Part shown: in pieces, positions 31,598-33,944 of the stretch
How the letters are laid out: each line of letters begins with the position of its first letter
Numbering within the stretch: position 1 is the first letter of the stretch
Translations under genes and position numbers: made by a program
The notes under the pieces: generated by a model
The model's database searches: none
Told to the model about the DNA's origin: nothing
The model's input: only the letters and a program-made list of their open reading frames with translations
Assembly (NCBI GenBank): GCA_946699065.1
Contig: CAMPDV010000124.1
Location: forward strand, 496,001-560,000
Reading direction: 5' to 3'
DNA from: Loxodes magnus
Taxonomy: Eukaryota > Ciliophora > Karyorelictea > Loxodida > Loxodidae
DNA length: 64,000 bases

Positions 31598-32302
31598 ATG
31601 ATAAATTATACTTTCTACAACAAATTATAAGAAAATAAATTATCTAAATACAGCTTCTTTTCCTAGCTATAGAATAAGGAAATTAATTCTAGATAAAAAA
31701 TAGCTAACTAAGAAATCGTTAAATAAATATAATACTGCAAGGCCTTTAAGTAGCCTTTCCTCTAATTTATTTGTACGAAATAGGAGAATAATCTTGATAT
31801 ATTCATATTTATCAAATACTATGAAAAAAACAAACATGTATTTAACTAATTTCCTGGTTAGTATGCTTTCTATCTTCGTTATTTATTGAATAATTATTAG
31901 AGGTTCTAAGCTTTGCAAATAGATACTACAGAAATGAACTTTGCTATTAATTAAGTTTAAATCGAGATGGGCTCTTAGATGTAGATAATGGTATTTGTTG
32001 TCTATAAAAAGTAATAATTTGCTTTACTCTATAAAGATATCCATTACTAATCTAGATATTATGAACAAATAAAACTCCCTTCTAAACATTATAACTATCT
32101 TTGCTTCCTCTTGATAACAAAGTAGTGTGATATTGCTATTAGCAATAGTTCCTAAAAGATAAATAGTATTTGGTATAGAGACAGTATTATATAGAGTAGA
32201 GTGAGACTTTTATTTTCAATAGAGTTATAAATAAATCTACTAAATAGAATATTCAGCTTTCCGACTATTGAATGTAGAAATTATATAGATCTTCTAATTT
32301 GA
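31598..32302 (+). CDS. small unknown protein
   Basis: 234 residues from ATG to TGA, one exon, no TGA inside. Starts 35 bp after the histidine-kinase-like stop on the same strand. The sequence mixes helices (KYYEKNKHVFNQ, YAFYLRYLLNNYQRF) with beta-type segments (MGSQMQIMVFVVYKKQQF, YNYLCFLLITKQCDIAIS). No signal peptide, membrane segment or known motif. Its last 50 nt overlap the 3' end of the convergent kinase gene. Composition is well above the chance level of the spacers (Glu, Asp, Val, Gly), so I think it is real, but I do not recognise it. Confidence 0.55.
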
Positions 32303-33944
32303 TTAGTGCTTGCTCCATTTTAGGTCTTTGCTTTTAGTCGTAATTTAAGCATAATCTAATTAATTATCTGAGGTTTGGCTCTATTTCCTCTGGGATAGGA
32401 ACAGGCTTTTTTTTGAAGATCTGGTATATTTAAAAAAGCTTACTTCATAGTAAATACAATTAGTATTAGCACTAGATATATAACTCCATGGCCTCTTCCC
32501 TGAAAATATTTCTATTAATATGCATCCAAAGCTTCATACATCTATTTCAGTGCCTAGTTGTAATGTTTTATCCTTATCAAATAACTCAGGAGCCATAAAT
32601 CTCGTTGTACCTATACAAATGGTTGTATTTTCCTATGTTTCTTCTGGAATATTCTCCTTATTTTATAGCATATTTAATGGTCTAGCTAAGCCAAAGTCTG
32701 CAATCTTGACATTATAAGCTGAATCAAGCAAACAGTTTTCAGGTTTAAGATCTCTGTGAACAATAGGCGGATTGTTTTTATGTAAATACACGATTCCTCG
32801 AGCAATTTGAATTGCTATATAAAACCTATCCAAAAGAGAAAGCTTTAGCTACTTGTTTTTATGCAGGGCAAAGAACAAAGTATTGTTATCACAAAATTCC
32901 GTTAAAATGCACATATTTGGGCCATCAACACTAACTCCCATAAGTAAAAGTAAGTTAGGATGTCTTATTCTCATAAGAGCTCCTATTTCTTTAACGAATT
33001 TTCTCATTTCTTTTCTGTTTTGAGTATATTCTATTTTAAACTACTTAATTGCTACTTCCGTTTAACGTCACCTTCCTTTTCAAACTTAACAAGACGATCC
33101 TTTGCTTATTTGCTCTATGAACTATAGCTCGCTGTATTTTACTACTGGCACACACTGATTTTTATCTTAAAGAGTACGTTATAAAAACTAGAAGGGCTAT
33201 TCATCAGGTCTTTCCTCTAAATTGCGAGATATAGTTGATGAAGAAAAGGAGTTGATTTCTTCTTTCAGCATTCTACTTTTAAGAGGTACTAGCTTCTTAT
33301 TTTTCTAGCTTCTAGAAGAGTCAAGTATCAGAGTGTTGTTACTAGTAGACATATTATTAAACGTTGACTAGTTCTATTTGTTAATAACAGACAACTATTC
33401 TATTATTTCTAATTTCTGTGCATTCTTACTCAACTATGCTATCATTTTAGGCGTTCTATTGTCTTTATTGACCAAGTCTGGAGTAGCATTGTATTTTAGT
33501 AAAATAGCAACCATTTCAGAATCTCCTTAATGTGCTGCTATATGTAAAGGCGTTCAACCTCTATCATCAACCACATTTTTCATGTTAGGAAATGTTTAAT
33601 TTTCCCTTAGCAGCATTCTAACTATTTCATAATGCTTTAGCTAGACAGCAAAGTGTAAAGGTGTTCCATTAAAAGGAATTTTTGGGATTATCCCACCGCC
33701 AAGTAAGAATATTTATTTAAAGCAGCTTCCTGAACCTTGTTTTAATGCCTAATAAAGTGGAGATTCTCCCAAGTGATTCAAAATATTCTTATCTACTTTA
33801 GCTTTCTCAATTGCATATACAAGAGACTAAACATCATTATTAGCTATGAACCTAGCCACTAGATCTCCTGTCTATCCTTGCTATAACTTCTGACTAGCTC
33901 TAATTATAAAAAGCTTACTCTTTCTAAGATTATTTATTTCCCAT
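32253..33944 (-). CDS. ankyrin-repeat TKL-family protein kinase
   Basis: 549 residues with two introns: 19 nt (33900-33918) and 23 nt (32421-32443). The start MGNKQSQK fits N-myristoylation. Residues about 20-165 hold four ankyrin repeats ([53 protein letters not shown]). After a linker comes a complete kinase domain: CQVWKGRWRQTEVAIKQ (catalytic Lys), [25 protein letters not shown] and DVWSFGC. This Ser/Thr or dual-specificity kinase resembles tyrosine-kinase-like (TKL) enzymes, and all catalytic residues are present. Three invariant or near-invariant Trp (VWKG, GRWR, DVWS) and the ankyrin GWTPLH Trp are TGA: direct evidence for UGA = Trp. It ends at TGA after QQSES, overlapping the convergent gene by 50 nt. 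Confidence 0.9.

Follow-up and report, generated by a model that had tools for sequence, protein, structure and literature searches.

The 64,000-nucleotide stretch of DNA analysed here (the window; G000:C124:496001-560000) is, with a probability of about 95%, macronuclear DNA of the karyorelict ciliate Loxodes magnus, which uses NCBI code 27 and decodes it as follows. Dedicated tRNAs, whose anticodons are UUA and CUA, would insert Gln at UAA and UAG, internal UGA would be decoded as Trp, most likely through an abundant tRNA-Trp(CCA) with an anticodon stem of only 4 bp, and an eRF1 with an altered stop-recognition loop would terminate translation close to the 3' end of the mRNA. The reassignment of the stop codons is confirmed as an observation, and the original prediction, that UAA and UAG mean Gln and UGA both Trp and stop, holds in the window and in the surrounding genome (assembly G000; 705,730,643 bases, 7843 contigs). 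Its suggestion of a karyorelict lineage fits Loxodes, for which table 27, with UGA as the only stop, has been published together with a 706-Mbp L. magnus macronuclear assembly (PMC11441545); the code was therefore identified correctly, but it was already known and the finding is not new. Ambiguous codes of this kind matter in showing that the position of a codon in the mRNA, and not its identity alone, can distinguish stop from sense.

Sense codons in the window and across the genome

In six gene pieces from the window (4083 codons) Gln is encoded by TAA 141 times, TAG 98 times, CAA 57 times and CAG 20 times, so that, as predicted, most of it (239 of 316) is written with TAA or TAG, and Trp is encoded equally by TGA (16) and TGG (16). 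The gene around which the prediction was built lies on the minus strand at 33944-32253, begins with an ATG at 33944-33942 (MGNK...) and, after removal of two GT..AG introns, yields a product of 549 residues in which ankyrin repeats are combined with a kinase domain. Its Gln codons are TAA 11, TAG 18, CAA 9 and CAG 3, and its Trp codons TGA 4 and TGG 1, in addition to the final TGA. The location and the TGA codons had been given correctly; the two short introns had gone unmentioned. A single straight frame from 33944 was rejected, its frame being wrong through most of the gene, and as one frame fails to carry the whole kinase, introns are needed (Table 1). Known L. magnus introns have a mean length of 19.3 bp, and 93% of them do not exceed 25 bp (PMC11441545).

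Table 1. Coordinates of the features discussed (window positions unless a contig is given)
Feature	Position	Strand	Remark
Kinase exon 1	33919..33944	-	ATG start, MGNK...
Kinase intron 1 (putative), 19 nt, GTAAG...TTAG	33900..33918	-	keeps the ankyrin/kinase frame; typical L. magnus intron length
Kinase exon 2	32444..33899	-	carries the ankyrin repeats and the greater part of the kinase domain
Kinase intron 2 (putative), 23 nt, GTAAG...CCAG	32421..32443	-	
Kinase exon 3	32253..32420	-	end ...YIQ(TAG)SES-TGA
TGA as Trp, ankyrin G(W)TPLH	33554..33556	-	column variable in solved homologues
TGA as Trp, V(W)KG	33080..33082	-	solved homologues have H or Y here; non-Trp column in genome kinases
TGA as Trp, GR(W)R	33068..33070	-	solved homologues have W or C here; non-Trp column in genome kinases
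TGA as Trp, DV(W)SFG	32534..32536	-	column in other kinases: 16 TGG, 4 TGA, 1 Tyr codon
TGA as stop of the kinase	32253..32255	-	in frame; kinase homology stops just upstream
Second protein kinase	36275..38104	-	of its two TGA codons one falls in the Trp column of subdomain XI (13 Trp, 2 Phe, 1 Leu) and one in a column of Glu/Asp
TmcB-like gene 1	13161..17383	-	ends GNIK-TGA 13161-13163; final stretch in a different frame, like gene 2
TmcB-like gene 2 (TPR_TmcB; weak PAS)	51719..55821	-	ends WNFK-TGA 51719-51721
Tandem TGA TGA, MORN gene end	22080..22085	-	frame changes upstream, introns unmapped
TGA stop of TPR gene	27071..27073	+	
TGA stop of gene 27571-28675	27571..27573	-	
TGA stop of transporter-like gene (starts near 34352)	35872..35874	+	internal frame change, unmapped intron
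TGA stop of gene 38109-39719	39717..39719	+	
TGA stop of RING-finger gene	47250..47252	-	after a putative 20-nt intron, 47287-47306
Thioredoxin reductase loci with GC-TGA-G-TGA end (L148, L149, L150, L151)	G000 C1, C42, C202, C332		

All four internal TGA codons of the kinase are present and in frame, and its predicted terminal TGA is in place. The stronger claim, that the four internal ones mark conserved Trp residues, survives for DVWSFG, which is a true Trp column, and is weaker for VWKG and GRWR, whose columns are dominated by Lys/Arg and His among the other kinases of the genome; the ankyrin column is variable. For comparison with solved structures TAA, TAG and TGA were masked as X, and because the alignment of the whole kinase to the PDB was swamped by ankyrin repeats it was redone with the kinase domain, whose three TGA columns face H/W/Y in CTR1 and Y/C/F in TNNI3K, the nearest solved kinases, Trp occupying one of six positions. 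By the refutation test originally proposed, TGA columns that align with residues other than Trp, this kinase taken alone would be weak evidence, and the matter is settled by other genes of the genome.

The broader kinase alignment comprised 22 domains, namely 20 fetched from the 136 listed genome matches and the two window kinases, with 258 columns and all stop codons masked. Judged by sense codons, three of the 258 columns are Trp-modal, and these take 9 of 18 TGA (binomial p 1.7e-13) and 37 of 48 TGG, as against 0 of 86 TAA and 0 of 55 TAG. The nine TGA elsewhere stand in columns with Glu (3), Phe (2), Asp (2), Lys (1) or His (1) as the most frequent residue; since half of the TGA codons fall outside Trp-modal columns (11 of 48 for TGG), many single TGA positions carry little weight of their own. 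With 21 domains (the 20 fetched and the second window kinase) TGA is enriched 48-fold against Trp codons, and enrichment against Gln codons is 5.0-fold for TAA and 6.1-fold for TAG, the control CAA giving 8.7-fold. The motif DxWSxG was found in 18 of the 20 genome kinases, with TGG in 14 and TGA in 4, the remaining two reading DFWSIG by eye.

Other genes point the same way. Between the two TmcB-like paralogues of the window, three of four TGA cells have Trp opposite them and the fourth has Phe, the Trp of the WNF motif in four glutathione peroxidases is encoded twice by TGG and twice by TGA, and in a comparison of eRF1 with the human protein TAA faces Gln in 7 of 13 cases and TAG in 2 of 7. 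The Gln of the eRF1 GGQ motif, which catalyses release, is itself encoded by TAA (L130, G000:C196:19600-21250). A reading of UAG as Lys, raised by 14 of 60 TAG cells facing Lys in the TmcB-like pair, was dropped, as CAG has an equal Lys share in the wider kinase set. The TmcB-like paralogues carry the same residue at 539 of 1127 aligned sense codons, and their PAS match lies below the curated cut-off.

The standard code, combined with pseudogenes or assembly errors, would leave the kinase with 33 internal stops and eRF1 broken at its catalytic Gln; in-frame TAA, TAG or TGA occur in all but one of the 136 genome kinases among the matches listed, TGA is tied to Trp columns in the kinase alignment, and tRNAs with matching anticodons exist. 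Nothing was found to support this explanation, to which we attach practically no credence.

Gene ends and the codons that terminate them

All nine readable gene ends in the window are TGA, several of them only with an assumed intron; these nine do not represent every gene of the window, and a TAA end is harder to recognise by this approach. In TmcB-like gene 2 the final stretch lies in a different frame, and an unmapped intron is therefore assumed. The gene finder returned 33 segments in the window, some of them spurious, such as minus-strand segments over the transporter gene. That transporter-like gene (34352-35874, plus strand), originally described as SLC38, lies opposite spurious minus-strand frames, and one scanned 183-residue piece of it gave no Pfam match. 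The second kinase, on the minus strand, continues near 36250-36275 for about 37 codons past the end of the coding signal without an in-frame TGA, and may end at TAA or contain an unseen intron.

Elsewhere in the genome 29 of 31 histone-fold loci (two pairs look duplicated) were assigned a TGA end, namely the first TGA from the domain end onwards, among them five of five canonical H3 histones (GERT-TGA), and TGA also ends 4 of 4 glutathione peroxidases and 4 of 4 distinct thioredoxin reductases. A histone H4 pattern had ten genome matches, nine with TGA, these nine being known from the pattern only; the lone match with TAA proved not to be H4 once its sequence was inspected. Of 85 matches to the actin pattern HRKCF eight were fetched, and the one true actin among them ends in TGA, whereas the remaining seven, six with TAA and one with TAG, were judged by eye not to be actin. 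TAG was not found as a stop among the ends read of histone-fold, glutathione peroxidase, thioredoxin reductase and window genes.

The last 20 codons of the 29 histone-fold genes (580 codons) contain TGA 0, TAA 2, TAG 6, CAA 8, CAG 4 and TGG 0 times. Coding UGA is accordingly absent just before the stop, an observation that is weak alone as TGG is also absent. TAA is scarce there relative to CAA (2:8 vs 141:57 in window genes; Fisher p 0.0017), in a test that sets related histone genes against unrelated window genes. These counts fit the published depletion before Loxodes stops, which concerns UGA and UAA and not UAG (PMC11441545).

The status of UGA as the sole stop is qualified by two H3 variants, one that appears to end in TAA and one that is ambiguous. 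The first (L111; G000:C327:221640-222700, at 222059) carries TAA-TAA-TAA directly after GEKHLTDM; counting from the first TAA, a TGA next occurs in frame at codon 169, and A or T make up 82 of the following 100 bases. With its paralogue L113, which ends in TGA, it shares 100 of 108 residues and 279 of 324 bases, and it therefore does not have the appearance of a decaying copy. In the near paralogue L112 a TAA at the matching place is followed five codons on by TGA. From its sequence L111 seems to terminate at UAA. Rare UAA stops in karyorelicts are reportedly mentioned in an abstract of Seah et al. from 2022. An intron of 47 nt, starting from a GT just before the TAATAA, is possible in L111, but 93% of the known introns of the species are no longer than 25 bp (PMC11441545). 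Termination at UAA, if confirmed, would show that this codon retains part of its role as a stop although a tRNA with a UUA anticodon exists.

Two departures from table 27 have to be weighed against these ends. A Condylostoma-type code (NCBI table 28), in which each of the three codons serves as sense and as stop, would accommodate the L111 end, with its distant TGA, and the scarcity of TAA before histone-fold stops, and it is an unlikely one: no TAG-ended gene occurs among the ends read, the one HRKCF-TAG match fetched not being actin, TAG shows no depletion ahead of stops (6 of 580 codons, with CAG at 4), TGA ends 29 of 31 histone-fold, 9 of 9 window, 4 of 4 glutathione peroxidase and 4 of 4 thioredoxin reductase genes, and the L. 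magnus paper gives UGA as the only stop (PMC11441545). A refinement lying between tables 27 and 28, in which UGA and UAA are ambiguous and UAG is unambiguously Gln, draws on the same H3 variant and the same scarcity of TAA, and we lean towards it, with the reservations that just one gene is clear, L112 having a TGA five codons past its TAA, that a 47-nt intron could account for the L111 end, and that the depletion test mixes related histones with unrelated window genes.

tRNAs, eRF1 and a probable selenocysteine reading

A Gln-like tRNA pattern with a UUA or CUA anticodon had 263 matches in the genome and 16 in a reversed control. Thirty of these loci were cut out, giving 17 with UUA, 11 with CUA (one of them with an altered acceptor arm) and 2 that are not tRNAs; ARAGORN, applied to seven of the thirty, called 2 TTA, 3 CTA and 2 none. 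To judge from features of the tRNA body, the UUA and CUA tRNAs are probably charged with Gln. The tRNA-Trp(CCA) pattern had 128 matches against 0 in the control, and 97 of the 100 among the matches listed (counted by hand) share one matched string, with tandem arrays at C67 482322-491201 and C148 155463-168699 built of units of about 187 and 241 bp. In all three array copies that were fully read (L090, L093, L094) the 27-43 pair at the top of the anticodon stem is broken, leaving a stem of 4 bp, and two copies on C110 (L091, L092) have a normal 5-bp stem; one of the six matches fetched is not a tRNA. Many copies were also seen of tRNA-Lys(TTT) (5 of 5 checked) and of the UUA and CUA tRNAs.

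A search with a single pattern did not find tRNA-Trp(UCA), giving 2 matches vs 5 in the control. The proposed search for CUA, UUA and UCA anticodons thus succeeded for the first two; the UCA tRNAs found belong to tRNA-Sec, and the tRNA-Trp found carries CCA. The 4-bp stem of the Loxodes tRNA is already in print in Swart et al. (eLife RP93502), as credited by PMC13092985, and PMC12005148 credits it to Swart et al. 2023. Decoding of UGA by this tRNA, and proximity to the poly(A) tail as the switch between sense and stop, would follow from published work; the mean 3' UTR of Loxodes is given as 53 bp (PMC11441545).

In the eRF1 encoded on C196, the residue corresponding to human Ser70 is Ala. The Tyr of the YxCxxxF motif, Tyr125, is replaced by Phe. 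A second, putative eRF1 copy lies at C196:54613. The strongest PF03463 match (C2:1762690) was set aside, being Dom34/pelota by eye and not eRF1.

UGA probably has a further meaning, judging from gene ends and tRNA sequences. Three tRNA-Sec genes with a TCA anticodon lie above the Rfam cut-off. Among thirteen genome PF02852 matches whose ends were read, four distinct loci and one duplicate end in KTGC-TGA-G-TGA, an end absent from the other eight. We take this GCUG end to be the thioredoxin reductase motif. The first UGA, two codons before the UGA stop, would thus specify selenocysteine, and it forms an exception to the UGA-free zone before stops. An invariant GTGA lies 43-45 nt from the Sec codon in all four distinct genes, followed by arms, picked by eye, that are fully paired (6/6 to 9/9, counting G-T) with letters that differ between genes. 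No Rfam match to SECIS was obtained in these 3' regions at E<=1, and automatic alignment and folding of the short 3' pieces misaligned them and gave no helix. All four glutathione peroxidases belong to the Cys type. In Parduczia and Condylostoma the Sec codon of thioredoxin reductase is close to a SECIS, according to a figure legend (PMC4967479); a literature search for selenocysteine with Loxodes or karyorelict listed no paper on Sec in Loxodes by its title. These ends would offer a sharp natural test, since a ribosome that elsewhere in the same cell decodes UGA as Trp would have to insert Sec at the first UGA and terminate at the second, all within nine bases.

Taken jointly, the sequences somewhat favour a cell in which UGA means Trp, Sec or stop according to context, UAA means Gln and rarely stop, UAG is plain Gln, and the tRNA-Trp pool is split between arrays of 4-bp copies and a few 5-bp ones, with two thioredoxin reductase UGAs two codons apart and a SECIS-like element beginning some 45 nt from the Sec codon. 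The selenocysteine and UAA-stop points would extend the published code.

Comparison with known codes

The closest counterpart is NCBI table 27, described as the karyorelict code in Parduczia sp. by Swart et al. 2016 (PMC4967479) and published for Loxodes (PMC11441545), in which UAA and UAG are Gln and UGA is Trp inside genes and stop at their ends. Two further features of the published Loxodes genome, a scarcity of UGA ahead of stops and introns about 19 bp long, recur in our observations (PMC11441545). No difference from table 27 is seen within the window, and in the genome the differences are one histone gene apparently ended by UAA and a Sec-like use of UGA. Condylostoma magnum (table 28) resembles L. 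magnus in that all three codons have a sense meaning and in having a tRNA-Trp(CCA) with a 4-bp stem; it differs in stopping at all three codons, where L. magnus uses UGA and probably, in one gene, UAA. Blastocrithidia nonstop likewise combines a 4-bp tRNA-Trp(CCA) with an eRF1 substituted at Ser70 (PMC12153298, PMC13092985), but there UAR is Glu, UAA is the sole stop and Ser70 has become Gly, where here it is Ala. The 4-bp tRNA-Trp is published as the only form in C. magnum and B. nonstop, whereas in L. magnus, as set against Condylostoma, 5-bp copies are also present.
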